From: Actinomycetota bacterium
GTDB taxonomy: Bacteria; Actinomycetota; Thermoleophilia; BMS3ABIN01
NCBI GenBank assembly: GCA_023382335.1
Contig: JAMCPM010000006.1
Span: forward strand, 134,372-198,371
Direction of reading: 5' to 3'
DNA length: 64,000 nt
Below the pieces are notes generated by a model that had not been told where the DNA came from, searched no databases, and saw only the letters and a list, made by a program, of their open reading frames with translations. Made by a program: the position numbers and the translations under genes. Positions 2,783 through 41,105 of this stretch are shown here, piece after piece (position 1 is the first letter of the stretch; every line of letters starts with the position of its first letter).

Positions 2783-3871
2783 TTACTTCAGCTCCGCCAG
2801 TTTCTCCAGCAGGAATTCATTCTCCTTGGGCGCGCCGATGCTCACCCTGATGTAACCGGGGATGCCCAGCGCCGCGCCGCTGCGAACGATAACTCCGCGC
2901 CTCAGCAGCTCTTCAGGAACATCCGCCGCAGGCACGTTCAGCCGATCGATCTCGACCAGCATGAAATTGCTCTGGGTCCTGACGTAGCCGATCCCGAGCC
3001 GGTCGAGGCCGTCATAAAGCTGGCGGCGTCCCTGGCGGTTCAGCTGCCGGCGCTCCTCCAGCCTGCTTTCCAGGCTGAGCGCCTTAAGCGCCGACGCCTG
3101 TGCCAGCGTATTGATGTTGAAGGGCTGGCGCACCTTGTCGACTGCTTCTTTCACTTCGGGCGAGCACAGGCCGTACCCGACCCTGAGGCCGCAGAGGCCG
3201 TATATCTTTGAAAAGGTCCGGGTCAGGATGACGTTGGCATTGGCCCGAAAAAGTTCGAGGCCTCCCTGCGAGTCGGTTTCCTCGACGTATTCATTGTAGG
3301 CTTCGTCGAGGATGAGGGCGCAATCGTCCGGCAGCCCCGCGGCAAACGCGGCGATGTCGGCGGCTGGCAGATACGTTCCCGTGGGATTGTGCGGATTGGT
3401 CAGGAAGACGGCGCGCGTGGCCTCGTTGACGGCGGCGCCCATCGCCTTGAGGTCATTCCCGAAATTTGTTAACGGGACCTTTACCGGCTTTGCCCCCCGG
3501 GCCAGAGTGACTTCCTCATAGACCAGGAAGGTCGGGTCGGCGATGACCGCCTCGGTCCCCGGCTCCAGCAGGATCAGGCTCAGCCAGATAAGAAGCTCGC
3601 AGGAACCGTTGCCGAGGAGCACCCGGTCAGGCTCGACCGCGTAGCGCTCAGCCAGGGCCGCCCGCAGGTCGCGCGCTTCAGCGTCGGGATAGCGGTTGAG
3701 GCGCTCGAACTGGTCGGTGATGACCTCCAGGACTTCAGGGAATGGCGGCAGCGGCGACTCGTTGGACGCCAGTTTGACCACTTTTTCGAGGCCGTAGGCT
3801 TTGGCTACGACCTCGATGGGCGCGCCGGCGACATACGGTGTGAGATTTTTTATCTGGGAAACGAATTTCAT
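2783..3871 (-). CDS. hisC: Histidinol-phosphate aminotransferase
   Basis: 362 residues, full length for class-II PLP aminotransferases of the HisC type, which convert imidazole acetol phosphate and glutamate to L-histidinol phosphate. Visible motifs: KLASNESPLPPFPEV near the N-terminus, LLGNGSCELL, NPHNPTGTYLP, the ILDEAYNEYVEE aspartate site, and TFSKIYGLCGLRVGYG carrying the PLP lysine. The C-terminal RSGAALGIPGYIRVSIG is typical. Last gene of a minus-strand run from trpS. A second, divergent paralogue (CobD, 36 kb) lies in the cobalamin cluster; this copy keeps the canonical HisC features. Given the neighbouring chorismate mutase it may also transaminate aromatic substrates (inference). 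Confidence 0.92.
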   Translation of the reverse strand: MKFVSQIKNLTPYVAGAPIEVVAKAYGLEKVVKLASNESPLPPFPEVLEVITDQFERLNRYPDAEARDLRAALAERYAVEPDRVLLGNGSCELLIWLSLILLEPGTEAVIADPTFLVYEEVTLARGAKPVKVPLTNFGNDLKAMGAAVNEATRAVFLTNPHNPTGTYLPAADIAAFAAGLPDDCALILDEAYNEYVEETDSQGGLELFRANANVILTRTFSKIYGLCGLRVGYGLCSPEVKEAVDKVRQPFNINTLAQASALKALSLESRLEERRQLNRQGRRQLYDGLDRLGIGYVRTQSNFMLVEIDRLNVPAADVPEELLRRGVIVRSGAALGIPGYIRVSIGAPKENEFLLEKLAELK

Positions 3872-14406: not shown

Positions 14407-14633
14407 GTTTCCCTTTCCAGATCCGCAGTCCGCCATAAGTTCCGATTAGAGGGTCCCCATCCGCTGAACTCGTACGGCCGCACTGTTATCAAGTGCGAGT
14501 ATTGTACTGTGATTGAGCCGTTTTCGGCAAGACTCGCCGGTTAAGAACTGGTTAAGTTTCTTTGTCCACGGGGATGAAGATATTGTCATTTGCAGGGTTG
14601 TAATTCGTGGTATTCCGGCCGAAAGGCTCTGGC

Positions 14634-16817
14634 ATGAACGAAATTTCCATAAAATCAGTCCGCGCGCGGGATGGCAGCCTGGTCAACTTCGACGCCCGGC
14701 GCATCGAGAACGCGATTTCGCGGGCGATGGAGGCCGCCGGCGAGAGCGACGGCAAGACCGCCCGCGAGATGACCGGGCTGGTGGTGGAACGCCTTAAGGC
14801 AGGCTATCCAGGTAGCATCCCCAGCGTCGAGGAGATTCAGGACGTGGTCGAGGAAGTGCTGATGTCCAGCCCCCTGCGGGAGACCGCCCGCGCCTACATC
14901 ACCTACCGGCGCCGCCATGCGGAGGTCAGGACCGCCAAGCAGTTCCTCGGCGTCAGGGACGACCTCAAGCTGCCCTTGAATGCCCTAACCGTCCTCAAGA
15001 AGCGTTATCTGCTCAAGGACGGCGAAGGCCGCGTGATCGAGACCCCGCGCGAGCTGTTCAGGCGCGTCGCACACCATATCGCCGCCCCCGACGCCACTTA
15101 CGGCGATGACGCCGCCACTTCCGAGGAAGAGTTTTACCAGGTCATGGCTTCGAGGGAATTCATGCCAAACTCGCCGACGCTGATGAACGCCGGCACCGAA
15201 CTGGGGCTGCTTTCGGCCTGCTTTGTGCTGCCTGTCCCCGATTCCATTCCCGGGATCTTCGACTCGGTGAAGTACATGGCCATCATCCACCAGGCCGGGG
15301 GCGGCACCGGATTCTCTTTCTCGCACCTGCGGCCAAAAGGCGACATCGTCGGCACTACCCACGGCGTGGCCTCCGGCCCGGTGAGTTTCATGGGTGCCTT
15401 CGACAGCGCCACCGAAGCCGTCAAACAGGGAGGGCGCCGGCGCGGCGCCAACATGGGCGTCCTGCGAGTGGACCATCCCGATATCCTGGATTTCATCAGC
15501 GCCAAGCAGCAGGAGGGCTTCCTGCGCAATTTCAACATCTCCGTGACCGCCACTGACGGGTTCATGGAAGCGGTCAGGGACGATGGCGATTACGGGCTGG
15601 TTAATCCCAGGACCGGCGAAGAGACGGGGCGCCTGCGGGCGCTGCCGGTTATGGAAGCGATCGCCTCGGCTGCCTGGGCAACGGGTGACCCGGGAATGAT
15701 ATTCCTCGACCGCATCAACGCCGTGAACCCGACGCCGCAACTGGGGCCGATGGAGACGACCAACCCCTGCGGCGAGCAGCCGTTGCTGTCATACGAGTCC
15801 TGCAACCTCGGATCTATCGATCTGTCAAAGCTGGTCCGGCGGGATGAGGTGAGCGGCGGTGCAAACGGCGCCGGCGATAGCGGCAAGCGCGGCGGTGCGA
15901 ACGAAACAGGCGCCGGCGAGATGGACTGGCAGCGGCTCGGCGAGTTAGTTGACATCTCGGTACACTTTTTAGATAACGTCATCGACGCCAACCGCTTTCC
16001 CCTTCCCCAGATCACGGAGATGACCAACGGCAACCGCAAGATCGGCCTGGGAGTCATGGGCTTTGCCGAGGCGCTGATACAGTTGGGCATCCGCTATGAT
16101 TCCGATCAGGCGCTGGCCAAGGCCGAAGAGATCATGAAATTCATCGAGGAGCGGGCGGTGGCCAAGTCGGCGGAGATCGCCGGGCGGCGCGGCTCCTTCC
16201 CCAATTTCGAGGGCAGCCTCTGGCAGCAACGCGGCCTGGCGGCGATGCGTAACTCGACCGTGACCACCATAGCGCCGACGGGAACGATCAGCGTCATCGC
16301 CGGCGCCTCCAGCGGCATCGAGCCCATCTTTGCCATCTCCTTCGTCCGCGATGTCATGGAAGGAACCCATCTGCTGGAGACGAATGCCGAGTTCGAACGC
16401 GTGGCCCGCCGGCGCGGTTTTTATTCCGAGGAGCTGATGCTGGAGATCTCACGCACCGGCAGCGTCCAGGGGGTTGACCGTGTGCCTGAAGATGTACAGG
16501 ATCTGTTCGTCACCGCGCTGGATATAGATCCCGAATGGCATGTGCGGATGCAGGCGGCTTTCCAGAAGCACGTCGATAACGCCGTCTCCAAGACGATCAA
16601 CCTGCCGCGCGGGTCCGGCATCGATGACGTGCGGCGGGCGTTCGTGCTGGCATGGGAGCTCGGATGCAAGGGCATCACTATCTTCCGCTACGGCAGCAGG
16701 CGCGAGCAGGTGCTCTACCTCAGCGGCGAGGTCGGCGGCGAGGGCGGCCAGAACGGACAGGTGCGGGCCGGCGCCGAGTTCGCCGGCGGCTGTCCGGCGG
16801 TCGACTGCGAGATCTAG
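14634..16817 (+). CDS. nrdJ: Adenosylcobalamin-dependent (class II) ribonucleotide reductase
   Basis: About 727 residues. It reduces ribonucleotides to deoxyribonucleotides using a B12-derived thiyl radical, in the cytoplasm and without oxygen. An ATP-cone (~1–90: VRARDGSLVNFDARRIENAI) precedes the barrel, with NSPTLMNAGTELGLLSACFV (active-site Cys), GGGTGFSFSHLRPKGD, GRRRGANMGVLRVDHPDI, the radical loop TTNPCGEQPLLSYESCNLGS, and APTGTISVIAGASSGIEP. The C-terminal GGCPAVDCEI supplies the redox thiols. A Gly/Asn/Ala-rich insertion follows SKLVRRDEVS (~15850–15915). The start MNEISIKS at 14634, behind GAAAGG, is preferred to an upstream ATG. It is a direct consumer of the corrinoid made by the cluster at 23–41 kb. 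Confidence 0.95.
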   Translation: MNEISIKSVRARDGSLVNFDARRIENAISRAMEAAGESDGKTAREMTGLVVERLKAGYPGSIPSVEEIQDVVEEVLMSSPLRETARAYITYRRRHAEVRTAKQFLGVRDDLKLPLNALTVLKKRYLLKDGEGRVIETPRELFRRVAHHIAAPDATYGDDAATSEEEFYQVMASREFMPNSPTLMNAGTELGLLSACFVLPVPDSIPGIFDSVKYMAIIHQAGGGTGFSFSHLRPKGDIVGTTHGVASGPVSFMGAFDSATEAVKQGGRRRGANMGVLRVDHPDILDFISAKQQEGFLRNFNISVTATDGFMEAVRDDGDYGLVNPRTGEETGRLRALPVMEAIASAAWATGDPGMIFLDRINAVNPTPQLGPMETTNPCGEQPLLSYESCNLGSIDLSKLVRRDEVSGGANGAGDSGKRGGANETGAGEMDWQRLGELVDISVHFLDNVIDANRFPLPQITEMTNGNRKIGLGVMGFAEALIQLGIRYDSDQALAKAEEIMKFIEERAVAKSAEIAGRRGSFPNFEGSLWQQRGLAAMRNSTVTTIAPTGTISVIAGASSGIEPIFAISFVRDVMEGTHLLETNAEFERVARRRGFYSEELMLEISRTGSVQGVDRVPEDVQDLFVTALDIDPEWHVRMQAAFQKHVDNAVSKTINLPRGSGIDDVRRAFVLAWELGCKGITIFRYGSRREQVLYLSGEVGGEGGQNGQVRAGAEFAGGCPAVDCEI

Positions 16818-20171: not shown

Positions 20172-20678
20172 CTACTCCGCAAAGTTCGCCCTAACCGAGA
20201 CCTTGCTCGCTGCAGGAGCAGGATCGCTGGAATTGATCGTGACCTCGAACAGGTGCTGACCGCCCATCCCTTTTCCCATGTGCATCGATACGTTGATTGT
20301 GGTGCTCTCACCCGGCGATATGGTCGTGGAACCCAGGACCGTTTGAGCGTTTCAACACCCTTCCAGGCGTTTGACCGAAAGCGGCCCCAGTTGCAGGGGG
20401 CCGGTGCCGATGTTCCTGATCGTGAAGGTGTGATCCACTTTCGTGTCGATGGGAACGGTGCCGAAATCGAAACTGGCCTCGGCGATCTGCAGTCGGCCGC
20501 CGGTGTCGGGCAGCGTGGCGGCTGTTGAGGTCGAGGCGCCCGCCGGGGCCGTCGCCGCGGCCGTGTTGTCGCCCCCGGCAACACCGGTGTCCGAAACCTG
20601 GCTGCCGCAGCCTGCCAGCAGGGAGACGATCAGCAATGCCGCGAAAGCCATGGATAGAAGCGCGATTCTATTTCTCAT
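20172..20678 (-). CDS. Candidate selenocysteine-containing DUF1573-like lipoprotein (in-frame UGA)
   Basis: The start is ATG at 20678 behind AGGAG. Codons 1–108 encode a lipoprotein signal (lipobox LLAGC, Cys24), a Ser/Thr/Ala linker and the first half of a DUF1573-like beta-sandwich (ASFDFGTVP, VDHTFTIRNIGTGPLQL). Codon 109 is TGA (20354–20352) directly after Cys108 (RLEGC). The same frame continues for 59 codons to TAG at 20172, and that part is the rest of the domain (STTISPGESTTINV, MGGQHLFEVTINSSDP). DUF1573 proteins usually have a cysteine pair where C108–U109 lies. A SECIS-like hairpin sits just after the UGA. Read-through as selenocysteine is therefore plausible; the alternative is a fresh nonsense mutation yielding a 108-residue fragment. 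No sel genes are in the window. Confidence 0.65.
20322..20340 (-). promoter_or_regulatory. Bacterial SECIS-like hairpin after the in-frame UGA
   Basis: On the minus strand, GGTCCTGG–GTT–CCACGACC forms a stem of seven pairs with one C·C mismatch and a GUU apical loop. The loop begins 20 nt after the UGA. Known bacterial SECIS elements lie inside the coding region immediately downstream, with a loop carrying a G at one of its first two positions about 16–37 nt from the UGA. This element fits that rule; it lacks the bulged U seen in E. coli fdhF. Confidence 0.55.
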
Positions 20679-23170: not shown

Positions 23171-24034
23171 TCAGGCGAGAACAGCGATTAGCCCAAGCAC
23201 CGCGGCCATGCGGCCCAGCTCGACAGCCGCTCCAAGGATGTCGCCCCCTGCTCCACCAAAGCTGATCCTTCCAATCGCCGCCAGGATTATTCCCATGATA
23301 AAGGCGGCTCCCGCTGCGGCCGCAACAGCCGGAAAGGGCAGCACCAGGGCCAGCGCCATCAATCCCGCTAAAGACAGTATGATCCCCACGGCATTGCGCC
23401 AGCCCCGGAGAGTCTCCAGAAAGATCTTGCCGCTGCCCTCATGAGAGGCCTTGCTGGCGGCGGCGACCGTGAACAGGCTGAGCCGGGCGGCTATCTCCAC
23501 CGCGGCCAGGGCGGCGACGATCGCTGCGCCTTCGCCATGCCAGCCGGTCCATCCGCCGGAATTGAGCCATCCGCCGGAGTGGCTCCAGCCTCCAGGCCCG
23601 CTCAGGCCGCCAGAGTGGCTCCAGTCTCCAGGCGCGTCCCCTCCCGGCAGAAGCAGCAACTGCGACAGCGCCGCCCAGGTTATCAGATACGTGAGAACAA
23701 GAGCGCCGGCGGCCCCTATGCCCATGGTGCGGTCCTTCAGCACCTCGATGCGGCGGCGTCTGTCGCCATGGACCATGAGAGCGTCACCGAGATCGGCAAG
23801 GCCGTCGGCATGATGCAGACCGGTCAGCAAAAGCGCGGCGGCCAGGACCAGTGCGGCCGCAACCGGCTGGCCGAAGATCCGTAGAGAGCCCCAGCCCGCG
23901 AGTCCTTCCAGGGCGCCCAGAAAGGCGCCGACCAGCGGCAGCAGATAAGCGGCGCCAGCCGTTTCCCTGATCGTGCCCGCTTGCGAAAGCGGCAGGATCG
24001 TGAAGAAGCCGAAGACCCGGCGCAATCCCTTCAT
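23171..24034 (-). CDS. cobS: Adenosylcobinamide-GDP ribazoletransferase (cobalamin synthase)
   Basis: 287 residues, a polytopic membrane enzyme joining adenosylcobinamide-GDP and alpha-ribazole in the last steps of B12 synthesis. Family motifs: FGFFTILPL at the start, LLTGLHHADGLADLGDALMV with the metal-binding acidic residues, RIEVLKDRTMGIGAAGALVL and GGAGGDILGAAVELGRMAAV near the end. A lineage-specific Gly/Trp/Ser/His-rich insertion with repeats of WSHSGG and NSGGW (DNA ~23555–23640) interrupts the middle. It overlaps cbiJ by 4 bp and closes the long minus-strand operon. Confidence 0.93.
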   Translation of the reverse strand: MKGLRRVFGFFTILPLSQAGTIRETAGAAYLLPLVGAFLGALEGLAGWGSLRIFGQPVAAALVLAAALLLTGLHHADGLADLGDALMVHGDRRRRIEVLKDRTMGIGAAGALVLTYLITWAALSQLLLLPGGDAPGDWSHSGGLSGPGGWSHSGGWLNSGGWTGWHGEGAAIVAALAAVEIAARLSLFTVAAASKASHEGSGKIFLETLRGWRNAVGIILSLAGLMALALVLPFPAVAAAAGAAFIMGIILAAIGRISFGGAGGDILGAAVELGRMAAVLGLIAVLA

Positions 24035-24831
24035 GGACGCTCGCGGGCGGTCGATGGCGCGGCTATCACGCCGGCAATCCTGGCGAGCAGTTCTTCCAGA
24101 TCGTGGATCGCGCCCGGGTCCGGCGGCCTCTTTACGAAAATAATCGCAGCGCCCTCAGCGGCGGCGGCGGCGCCTTTCTGCTCGATGCCCCCCTCCCGGC
24201 CGGAATCTTTGGTTACCAGTATTGTGGCGCCGGCGTGGCGCAGACAGGCGCGGTTAAAATCAATATCGAAGGGCGGCCAGGCGGCGATGATGTCGGCTGC
24301 ATCTATGCCGAGCCGGCGGCAATCGGCAATGGATTCGGGCAGCGGCAGCACCCGGGCGGTAAATTCGGCTCCCGCTTCTACGAAGGGCTCGAGATGACGC
24401 GTTCCCAGAGTGAGAAGGGCTCGCGAGCCCATGTCCCTGAGCTCGTCTGCCGCCGCCTCGAAAGATTCCACGGCAATGACCGTCGTCCCGGCAGAACCGG
24501 GACCGGAGGCGTCTGGCATTGGCGGCCGCGAATATCGCAGGCAGGGCAGATCTGCGATCGCCGCCGCCTTTTTTGCCTGCCGGCTGGCCTCCAGCGCAAA
24601 CGGATGGGAGCAGTCGATGATCGCTTCAGCCCCAAGTCCCGTGGCGCACTGCGCCATCATCGCCGCATCTTTCCTGCCCGCCTCAGTCGTCAGGCCCACA
24701 GCTGTAGCCACACTCTCTCCCAGCGGAGTGGCGACGCTGACAACAACGCGATAGCCTTCCTGTTCGATCCTCAGGGCGGCACGGTTTGCCTCTGATGTAC
24801 CACCTATAAGATATATGGTCTTATCGTTCAT
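24031..24831 (-). CDS. cbiJ: Cobalt-precorrin-6A reductase
   Basis: 266 residues. CbiJ/CobK reduces the macrocycle of (cobalt-)precorrin-6A with NAD(P)H. Motifs: YLIGGTSEANRAALRI at the N-terminus, IIDCSHPFALEASRQAKKAA, CLRYSRP, ALLTLGTRHLEPF and ATILVTKDSGREGGIEQK, all typical. The start overlaps the stop of cbiGH by 4 bp and its own stop overlaps cobS by 4 bp, so translation is coupled. Confidence 0.92.
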   Translation of the reverse strand: MNDKTIYLIGGTSEANRAALRIEQEGYRVVVSVATPLGESVATAVGLTTEAGRKDAAMMAQCATGLGAEAIIDCSHPFALEASRQAKKAAAIADLPCLRYSRPPMPDASGPGSAGTTVIAVESFEAAADELRDMGSRALLTLGTRHLEPFVEAGAEFTARVLPLPESIADCRRLGIDAADIIAAWPPFDIDFNRACLRHAGATILVTKDSGREGGIEQKGAAAAAEGAAIIFVKRPPDPGAIHDLEELLARIAGVIAAPSTARERP

Positions 24832-26669
24832 TGACTGACGCCCTCACGGCCGGCTCGCTTGTTCTCATAACCCCTTCCAGTCACCATCCTGCCATTGATG
24901 ACGGCAGTGCGTGAATTCCCGACAATGACGATCGTGCGCATGTCGATATCCTGCCCGATAAGGCTGGCGATATCGGTAATGCCAAAGGATTCCTCAGGGC
25001 TGCCTGCCGCGCGCACCCAGCCAACCGGCGTATCGGCTGGGCGGCTGCTCGCCAGAATGCCGCAAACCTCTTCAAACAGGGGGCGCCGCTTCTTGCTGGT
25101 GGGATTGTAAAGGCAGATGACCAGGTCGGAATCGGCAGCGAGGCGCGCCCGGCGCAGAACCTCCTCACGGGGAGTCAGGAGGTCGCTGAGGCTGAGCGTG
25201 ACGTAATCGTTCATCAGCGGCGCTCCGAGCCTCGCGGCGGCGATCTGCGCCGCGGTCACACCTGGGACTATCTCGACCGGCGTGCCGTCGGAGAGTTCCA
25301 GCAGGGGACCAGCCATGCCGTAGACCCCCGGATCGCCGCTGGATATCATGGCCACGGTCTGCCCGTCCGCGGCCGCCGCGAGCGCCTGCCGGCAGCGATC
25401 GACTTCCGCGCCCATCGATCCCGTGATGAACTGCTTCCCGGGGAAGATGTCCCTGATCTGCTCGACGTAAGTGCGGTAGCCCATGATGATGTCGGACGCG
25501 GCCAGAGCCTCTTTGGCCGCGGCGGTTAGGAGCGAGTCGGTGCCGGCGCCGGTGCCGACGACGATGACACGACCGGCGTTTGAGCGCGGCAGCCCGGCAG
25601 CCGCGACAGCCAGGGCGACAGTCACCGGGCCGAAACCTTCCTTCCCGGAAAGCAGCTCTCCGGCGCCGGCCGCCAGCAGGGCCGCGGGTTCGCAAACGGC
25701 GGGCGTGCCTACTTTGGCGGCTACGAATTCGCTTCCCGGCCTGCCTTCAGCCGCAAGTTCGGCCGCCGTGAAAAATCTCAGGCCGGCATCGAGCCGGGCA
25801 GCAGCCTCGATGAGACCGGCTTCATCATTCTTGACGTCGATGGAAGCGAGGGCGCCCACGGCCCGAGGATCCATTCCGTTGCGAACACAGGCGCCGGCGA
25901 TCGCCGCGACGATCTCATCGGCGGAAGCATCGCGGCGGCAGCCGACTCCCGCGACGATAGTCCGGGGGACAAGGTGCACGGTCTCCGGTGAAGGCCGCGA
26001 TACATTTTCTGACACGCCGCCGGCAGGAGTAGAATCATCGGCTTCATCAGATATATGCTCGGTTATCAAAATACGGCCGGCGTAGGCGGATGCATCCCCA
26101 CCGGCCGGAACCCAATCATAGCCTTCGATGCCGGGGTCGGCGCTACTCTCGATACAGACCTGTTTGCCATCAACCAGCATCGCTGTCACCCGCCTCAGGG
26201 CAACCGGATCGTCAATGATAAGCCCCAGTCGCCGCGCGACCTCGTCCGGAGCGACGAGTCCCTGCACGTCGCTGGCCGTTGTGATCACGGCGTCGCCTCC
26301 CAGAAATTCCGCGATATCAAGGGCGATGCGGTTAGCGCCGGCCGCGTGTCCTCCCAGCAGGGGCACAACGTGGCGGCCCGCCTCGTCGATGACGATTACC
26401 GCCGGGTCTTCCTGCTTGGAACGCAGGTGAGGAGCCAAAACACGGAAGGGAATTCCGGCCGCCATGACGCAGACCAGTGTATCGCCAGCCAGAAAACGTT
26501 CGGGTAGCGCTTCGGCGATACTGTCGAAGGGATCGCAATGCCCACAACCCAGGCTGTGGCAACGGGGAAGATGGGCATCGCCGCCAAAGCGGTCGCGCAA
26601 CTTCAACGCCAGCAGGGAACCTCCGGCGGTCAGGGAAAAATAACTTATCGTGGGCGAATCCTGTTTCAT
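24828..26669 (-). CDS. cbiGH: CbiG–CbiH fusion: cobalt-precorrin-5A hydrolase and precorrin-3B C17-methyltransferase
   Basis: 613 residues. Residues 1–360 are CbiG (LVCVMAAGIPFRVLAPHL, PLLGGHAAGANRIALDIAEF, TIVAGVGCRRDASADEIVAA, TPAVCEPAALLAAG), which removes the C2 unit as acetaldehyde. Residues ~366–613 are CbiH, a SAM-dependent methyltransferase contracting the ring (VIVVGTGAGTDSLLTAAAKE, MGYRTYVEQI, SSGDPGVYGMAGPLLEL, VPGVTAAQIAAARLGAPL, NPTSKKRRPLFEE). The two act on successive steps, so the fusion is sensible; it is known elsewhere. A cysteine/histidine-rich CHSLGCGHCD segment lies near residue 40. Confidence 0.92.
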   Translation of the reverse strand: MKQDSPTISYFSLTAGGSLLALKLRDRFGGDAHLPRCHSLGCGHCDPFDSIAEALPERFLAGDTLVCVMAAGIPFRVLAPHLRSKQEDPAVIVIDEAGRHVVPLLGGHAAGANRIALDIAEFLGGDAVITTASDVQGLVAPDEVARRLGLIIDDPVALRRVTAMLVDGKQVCIESSADPGIEGYDWVPAGGDASAYAGRILITEHISDEADDSTPAGGVSENVSRPSPETVHLVPRTIVAGVGCRRDASADEIVAAIAGACVRNGMDPRAVGALASIDVKNDEAGLIEAAARLDAGLRFFTAAELAAEGRPGSEFVAAKVGTPAVCEPAALLAAGAGELLSGKEGFGPVTVALAVAAAGLPRSNAGRVIVVGTGAGTDSLLTAAAKEALAASDIIMGYRTYVEQIRDIFPGKQFITGSMGAEVDRCRQALAAAADGQTVAMISSGDPGVYGMAGPLLELSDGTPVEIVPGVTAAQIAAARLGAPLMNDYVTLSLSDLLTPREEVLRRARLAADSDLVICLYNPTSKKRRPLFEEVCGILASSRPADTPVGWVRAAGSPEESFGITDIASLIGQDIDMRTIVIVGNSRTAVINGRMVTGRGYENKRAGREGVSQ

Positions 26670-26672
26670 GGG

Positions 26673-27425
26673 CTATTCGCGATATCCATGGGAAAATCCG
26701 TCTTTGTACAGGAGCGATTCCTCCCCGGCCTGGGCCAGCGCCTCGCCCACGAGGATGATAGCGGTGCAATCGATGCCGGCGGCGGCGATATCCGCCGACA
26801 GGCCCGCGACGGTCGTTCTGACGATCTTCTGCCCGGCCCGGCTGGCGTTTTGCACCACAGCCACCGGCGTCTGCGGCGGGTAGCCCTCGCCCAGCTTCGC
26901 CTGAACGTCAGCGGCCAGGCCGGCGCTGAGGAATATCGCCATGGTGGCTCCATGCCTGGCCAGGCTGGCGATATCTTCTGACTCCGGCACTGGCGTGCGG
27001 CCCGCGGCGCGCGTAATGATCACCGTCTGTGAAATGCCGGGAACAGTCAGCTCGCTGGTGAGTGCGGCGGCGGCGGCGCTCAGGGAGCTGACGCCGGGAA
27101 CGACCTCGTAGCCGATGCCCTCCTGCCGCAGCCGCGCCATCTGTTCCTTGACGGCGCCGAAGAGGGAGGGATCGCCGCTATGAAGGCGCACAACCTGCTT
27201 GCCGGCCCGCGCTCGCGAAACCATGGCCTTGACGATGTCATCAAGGCACAGAGGCGCGCTGTCGATCAGCTCCGCCTGCGGCGCGAACTCCAGAACGTCA
27301 GGATGCACGAGCGAACCGGCATGGATCACAGCATCGGCCCGCTGCAACAGGCGCATGCCCTTGATCGTCATGAGCTCCGGATCGCCCGGGCCCGCTCCCA
27401 GGAATGAAACTTTGGCTTCGTTCAT
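26673..27425 (-). CDS. cbiF: Cobalt-precorrin-4 C11-methyltransferase
   Basis: 250 residues of the tetrapyrrole methylase superfamily. Motifs: VSFLGAGPGDPELMTIKGMR (glycine loop), AGSLVHPDVLEFA, RLHSGDPSLFGAVKEQM, VVPGVSSLSAAAAALTSELT and the CbiF-specific VIITRAAGRTPVP. It methylates C11 of the contracted ring. Its start overlaps the cbiL stop by 4 bp. Confidence 0.92.
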   Translation of the reverse strand: MNEAKVSFLGAGPGDPELMTIKGMRLLQRADAVIHAGSLVHPDVLEFAPQAELIDSAPLCLDDIVKAMVSRARAGKQVVRLHSGDPSLFGAVKEQMARLRQEGIGYEVVPGVSSLSAAAAALTSELTVPGISQTVIITRAAGRTPVPESEDIASLARHGATMAIFLSAGLAADVQAKLGEGYPPQTPVAVVQNASRAGQKIVRTTVAGLSADIAAAGIDCTAIILVGEALAQAGEESLLYKDGFSHGYRE

Positions 27426-33189: not shown

Positions 33190-33390
33190 GCCCCTTTCTC
33201 TCGAAGGTTCTGGGATTACCGGTCAGGGGCGGGTTTTCTGGCTCATGAGATGAAACCGCATCCGGAAAAAACCGAAGCCGGACGTCTCTCTCACTTACAG
33301 TAGCGGGACTGCGTCGGAATCGCACCGAGCTTGCCCCATTTAAGCTTCTGCCATACAGGCGGAAGCCCCACTGACCATTACTGGTGTTTG
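33190..33390 (-). ncRNA. Cobalamin riboswitch upstream of cbiM
   Basis: Read on the minus strand, the core contains GGTGCGATTCCGACGCAG, then TCCCGCTACTGT, a clear version of the B12 box and its neighbours (consensus GGTGAAATTCC…GCAGCCCCCGCCACTGT). Upstream bases (CAGTGGGGCTTCCGCCTG) pair in the peripheral helices, and downstream GAGCCAGAAAACCCGCCCCTGA resembles the usual GCCAGGAGACCTGCC segment. It would sense adenosylcobalamin or a relative and control cbiMNQO-D-ET-L-F-GH-J-cobS through the adjacent terminator. Confidence 0.9.
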
Positions 33391-40854: not shown

Positions 40855-40917
40855 TGAATAGAGCAATCCTTCCACCCTAGCCACTCCCTCCGCGAAGAGT
40901 TGCCTGGCTAGAGCCTG

Positions 40918-41105
40918 TGGGCAGGTCTCCTGGCTCCTGGACATGCGCTCCGCGGCAGCCTTCCCGGGTTATTCCCAGTGGCCCGCCCTCCAAAGGGGCG
41001 GTTGCTCGCAAAGCATCCAGTTACAGTGGCGGGACCGCGCCGGCATTTCACCGGCTTCCCTTGGACGCCCCCTGAAGGGCGACCCACAGGCTGAAGCTTA
41101 TATGT
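40918..41105 (-). ncRNA. Cobalamin riboswitch upstream of cobU
   Basis: A textbook example on the minus strand: AAGCTTCAGCCTGTGGGT…, GGGAAGCCGGTGAAATGCCG, GCGCGGTCCCGCCACTGTAA, a peripheral hairpin domain, and GCCAGGAGACCTGCCCACAG near 40922–40941, which pairs with the 5' CTGTGGG to close the structure. It should control cobU–cobQ–cbiB–cobO–cobD–cobB–cbiXC. Confidence 0.95.

Follow-up and report, generated by a model that had tools for sequence, protein, structure and literature searches.

The window, which is the whole analysed stretch of 64,000 nucleotides from contig JAMCPM010000006.1 of an Actinomycetota bacterium, carries on its minus strand a gene that is interrupted by a single in-frame TGA. 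The gene starts with the ATG at 20678, which is preceded by an AGGAG ribosome-binding site, and the TGA (20354–20352) follows immediately 3' of the codon for Cys108. Another 59 sense codons lie between the TGA and a TAG at 20174-20172. The translation reads MRNRIALLS...LLAGC(24)...VKRLEGC(108)-TGA-NAQTVLGSTTISPGES...MGKGMGGQHLFEVTINSSDP...ANFAE-TAG. An earlier note on this DNA had proposed a selenoprotein at this locus, and its coordinates, its codon count and its placement of the UGA directly after Cys108 all agree with the translation. The protein is probably secreted and lipid-anchored, judging by its signal peptide and lipobox. Pfam searches assigned the HYDIN_VesB_CFA65-like_Ig domain (PF22544) with 47 bits (gathering cut-off 25.5) and DUF1573 (PF07610) with 39 bits (gathering cut-off 26.1). 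Both domains cover residues 63-164 and straddle codon 109, so the same beta-sandwich goes on past the TGA, as the note had held. The features of the locus are listed in Table 1.

Table 1. Features of the predicted selenoprotein gene, in window positions.
Feature	Position	Strand	Description	Basis
Predicted selenoprotein gene	20678–20172	-	169 codons including TAG; 168 residues including Sec109	Translation and homologues
Signal peptide with lipobox (predicted)	20607..20678	-	Lipobox LLAGC, putative lipidated Cys24	Read from translation
ASH/PapD-like Ig beta-sandwich (DUF1573/HYDIN-VesB type)	20187..20492	-	Residues 63-164	Pfam, AlphaFold2, fold match
In-frame TGA, codon 109	20352..20354	-	Motif Gly107-Cys108-Sec109	Column shared by homologues
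Putative bacterial SECIS upper stem-loop	20322..20340	-	GGTCCTGG-GTT-CCACGACC; 8 positions, one C.C mismatch, loop GUU, 11 nt 3' of TGA	
Second invariant motif, M-x2-GMGG-x-H-x-F	20247..20279	-	MGKGMGGQHLF, residues 134-144	Invariant alignment columns

The host assembly (2.45 Mb, 99% complete) encodes SelA (490 bits) and SelD (380 bits), and one cluster holds SelB, named by ORF reading, together with a tRNA-Sec with anticodon TCA that scores 67.8 bits. All four components on which the earlier note had made its reading depend are thus present. Presence of selA was dropped as a discriminating test: it was found in 24 of 25 chosen genomes, among them actinobacterial genomes whose copy of the gene encodes Cys in place of Sec, so the machinery cannot separate Sec-type from Cys-type genomes. 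The selD gene of the host (L061/L052, G000:C14:29557-30489) itself contains an in-frame UGA, in the motif GAGUACK.

Homologues were searched in 399 genomes of the class, which yielded 12 close members, the window's gene counted in, all from one taxonomic family. Each of the 12 has exactly one TGA in its aligned stretch, always in the context (E/D)GC-TGA. A wider scan of 84,980 species genomes with two search patterns recovered 27 loci from 25 named genome bins, and GC-TGA occurred in all 27; this outcome was not built in, since one of the two patterns avoided the TGA codon. Nine of the 27 loci are of actinobacterial type, and the others are labelled Desulfobacterales, several classes of Chloroflexota, NC10/Methylomirabilota, Rokubacteria and one unnamed bacterium. 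The closest relatives that carry a name are metagenome-assembled genomes labelled Thermoleophilia or Actinomycetes, and judging by these hits the host probably belongs to Thermoleophilia as an uncultured member. Standard gene calling ends the gene at residue 108, and the family is therefore likely to be truncated or missed in the annotations of all these phyla.

The invariant columns of the alignment are G-C-U, P-G, M, G-M-G-G, H and F. In a phylum-wide search, Cys replaced Sec (GCC) in other actinobacteria (L065, L066, L069 and L071), where L065 reads EGCCPG...MHPGMDGWH and the remaining three are alike. The column of residue 109, which the earlier note had singled out for comparison, is accordingly occupied by Sec or Cys. 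Compared with its nearest relative, the window's gene has a dN/dS of 0.27 ahead of the UGA and of 0.10 past it. Against five other congeners the part past the UGA gave 0.06–0.13, which indicates that this part is translated and constrained.

These comparisons bear on the two alternatives that the earlier note had offered, a recent nonsense mutation (and hence a pseudogene) or a sequencing error. While one TGA in a single gene would look identical under either, the same column holds TGA in ~30 distinct sequences from independent assemblies, which rules out both; the purifying selection on codons past the UGA and the conserved SECIS described next also speak against them, and the probability left to either is next to nil.

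The family element consists of an 8-bp stem that starts 11 nt past the UGA and carries a three-base loop with G first and usually GU. Among 29 distinct sequences, 93.5% of stem cells are paired and in five of the eight pairs both bases have changed; one position of the stem has C-G in 13 sequences, G-C in 11 and A-U in 5. For covariation, the stem scored 0.354, compared to 0.038-0.099 in controls with slid partners. With 30 sequences, 225 of 240 cells were paired against a mean of 179 (sd 5) under a synonymous-codon null, and none of 2000 redraws reached the observed number. In favour of selection on the RNA, some of the compensatory changes alter amino acids (e.g., GTC...ACC to GCC...GCC in L031). 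All 30 sequences have G as the first base of the loop, and the distance between UGA and loop is 19 nt, within the 16–37 nt of the published bSECIS model, and stem, loop and spacing all match its constraints (PMC13188914). The same model sets a free energy limit of -7.5 kcal/mol, and 25 of the 30 isolated elements lie at or below it. The window's own 19-nt element falls slightly short of this limit with -6.7 kcal/mol, and its 34-nt stretch folds at -8.2 kcal/mol with 7 pairs kept. The C.C mismatch in its stem also occurs in L013 and L025 and is thus not a fresh lesion. A 67-nt stretch around the window's UGA folded no better than its shuffles, so that the signal emerges only by comparison.

Decoding of the UGA without selenium, whether by a Trp code, by insertion of Cys or by leakage of the stop codon, has nothing specific in its favour. 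Trp recoding was rejected on the homologues, which have Cys and not Trp at the column where they lack the TGA; together with the complete Sec machinery and a conserved stem-loop that fits the bSECIS constraints, this makes read-through of such kinds hardly credible. The locus combines what computational identification of selenoproteins looks for, i.e., a UGA with conserved coding on both sides, Sec machinery, a SECIS element and Cys homologues. Selenocysteine at codon 109 is strongly supported by comparative genomics and is almost certain to be the correct reading, and the identification of the gene as a selenoprotein is, overall, very likely right. The central claim of the earlier note, that the UGA specifies Sec, gains its backing from the machinery, from the Sec or Cys column of the homologues and from the same TGA in ~30 distinct sequences. 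Translation would reach the UGA at codon 109, where SelB and Sec-tRNA-Sec, steered by the stem-loop just 3', would insert Sec, and the ribosome would then proceed to the TAG and finish the ASH/PapD-type Ig-like beta-sandwich.

A selenoprotein of the DUF1573 family, OS_HP2, is reportedly traced to work by Zhang and Gladyshev from 2007, which is the source that reviews give for it. Reviews of 2022 and 2026 describe the DUF1573 selenoprotein with the motif UGC and credit it to that work, and the 2008 GOS paper equates OS_HP2 with pfam07610 and the motif UxC. The statement of the earlier note that no selenoprotein of this family had been described does not stand as such, since OS_HP2 is known, but it holds for what is found here: the GCU type with another Sec position, its spread over several phyla and its gene neighbourhood are new. 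Its statement that a Cys pair is usual at this site in DUF1573 proteins fits only loosely, as the ordinary motif is CGC and the present one is a vicinal GCU or GCC.

That the gene is simply the described OS_HP2 selenoprotein is improbable. The two share the Ig-like DUF1573 domain, and OS_HP2 (NF041425, PF07610; from a delta-proteobacterial symbiont of Olavius algarvensis) likewise has its Sec in a Cys-bearing loop in mid-domain; NF041425 is also the best NCBIfam match of the window's protein. However, the match reaches 44 bits, far under the curated cut-off of 100, and relatives score 20-42 bits or do not match at all, with 20 bits or nothing in the members from Chloroflexota and NC10. In OS_HP2 the motif is UGC with Sec before Cys, whereas the window's gene and all its relatives have GCU with Sec after Cys; the exact match of columns between the UGC of OS_HP2-type proteins and this GCU is ambiguous by 1-2 residues. 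The invariant M--GMGG-H-F motif of the window's group is another difference from OS_HP2, and the 2026 review treats the same domain with a different Sec position as a separate subfamily. An NCBIfam search returned no model that covers the GCU group. Due to the GCU order, the score of 44 against 100 bits and the lack of any other fitting NCBIfam model, the protein is filed as a selenoprotein of the DUF1573/HYDIN type and not as OS_HP2. The GCU group seems to form a new subfamily, distinct from OS_HP2 and so far apparently unnamed. The selenoproteome would thereby gain a subfamily whose close members, as far as found, are nearly all of the Sec type and in which the Cys-Sec pair sits on a beta-sandwich, a fold other than thioredoxin. 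Vicinal CU motifs are also listed by the 2026 review for the MerB-like lyase SaoL, HgcA, MbdU and KCU-star, which belong to other family models and not to DUF1573.

Two further DUF1573 proteins were observed in the course of the searches. One, from another family of the phylum (L067, G677:C82:4036-4341), has the motif PSUGC and appears to be a true OS_HP2-type selenoprotein. The other, from another family of the class (L022, G329, 1063-1458), has two in-frame TGAs in the motif GG-U-T-U-G, which may be a version of the CGC/UGC motif with two Sec residues.

AlphaFold2, supplied with 28 relatives, predicted an Ig-like sandwich with a pLDDT of 93 and a pTM of 0.83, in which the sequence after the UGA forms the last four strands. 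The nearest solved fold is 2qsv from Porphyromonas gingivalis W83, a protein of unknown function (Z 13.8, rmsd 2.0, 103 aligned residues, 22% identity), and the likeness is one of overall fold; ASH domains of HYDIN, CEP192 and OCRL were matched as well. Most hits of a sequence search against solved structures were of the ciliary HYDIN type, and one was from P. gingivalis. Strands 38–49 and 55–58 of the model are joined by the loop that holds the Cys-Sec pair (model residues 51–52), and strands 68–76 and 83–93 by the loop with the GMGG motif. In the predicted strand order and Ig topology, the Cys-Sec loop and the M--GMGG-H loop are placed at the same pole of the sandwich. Cys108 and Sec109 would form a vicinal pair at one end of the sandwich.

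The gene neighbourhood was compared across the homologous loci. Among the 27 loci from named genomes, a membrane polyferredoxin (Fer4_5) was encoded near the gene in nine and a PCYCGC protein in seven. In the class search of 399 genomes, a PCYCGC gene lay within ~2 kb of 8 of the 12 Sec-type genes, and two Cys-type genes of other families (G466 and G446) were located at most 0.4 kb from one. Loci of Chloroflexota have CcmE/CcmF genes nearby, a gene of DsbA-like type occurs at one NC10 locus, and cupredoxin and polyferredoxin genes are found at the Dehalococcoidia locus (L036). Directly 3' of the GCU gene in L036, another PCYCGC-like frame (3268-3597), which is shorter and contains FCGC, is perhaps cut by an in-frame stop. 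The window's gene is flanked by DnaJ-like and GAF-like genes, as named by ORF reading, and has no adjoining PCYCGC gene. A search of the window's genome for a dedicated polyferredoxin gave only a distant homologue, with 29% identity across 265 residues.

The CYCXC/PCYCGC family (PF13798, OS_HP4) is a different domain from that of the window's protein and would be a likely partner, not a relative. Two PCYCGC genes with two in-frame TGAs each are located elsewhere in the window's genome, which makes this frequent neighbour of the relatives itself a selenoprotein there. They encode PCYCGC/CYCXC proteins with the UxxU motifs GAGUDLU (L057, G000:C11:240448-240807) and GAGUDIU (L058, G000:C13:160654-160953). 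Reviews list OS_HP4 as UxxC only. L057 adjoins a gene that reads as a CDF-type cation efflux protein. A literature search on the PCYCGC family returned nothing on its function.

As PCYCGC lipoproteins and polyferredoxins often adjoin the gene outside the window's species, extracytoplasmic thiol/selenol redox or metal handling is suggested. Judging by its motif, the Cys-Sec pair is likely to be a redox or metal centre. Its most likely role would be extracytoplasmic, either as a redox-active centre (reversible selenenylsulfide) or as a site that binds soft metals, in concert with PCYCGC lipoproteins and, at loci that have one, the membrane polyferredoxin. A direct partnership with PCYCGC proteins is slightly favoured, given the repeated adjacency in relatives and its absence beside the window's gene.

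A binder of soft metals (such as Cu or Hg) instead of a thiol/selenol oxidoreductase, in which Cys-Sec and the Met and His residues of the GMGG-H loop would hold a metal that is passed to or from PCYCGC proteins, appears rather unlikely. The invariant M, M and H alongside Cys-Sec, the cupredoxin and polyferredoxin genes near the Dehalococcoidia member and the CU motifs given by the 2026 review for SaoL (organometallic lyase) and HgcA (mercury methylation) point in this direction, but the DsbA-like and cytochrome c maturation genes of the neighbourhoods fit redox chemistry equally. Tentatively, a selenium-dependent extracytoplasmic module can be proposed for uncultured members of several phyla, in which electrons or a soft metal might pass between the Cys-Sec Ig-like lipoprotein and PCYCGC lipoproteins, many of which are selenoproteins too, with reducing power drawn through the membrane polyferredoxin. 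The neighbourhood joins three families of unknown function, DUF1573, PCYCGC and the polyferredoxin, into one testable system.

Elsewhere in the window, two cobalamin riboswitches were observed on the minus strand (33211-33387 and 40903-41102). Apparent cobalamin biosynthesis genes (e.g., 23171-27425) and an apparent ribonucleotide reductase (14607-16817) were also present, both named from sequence only.
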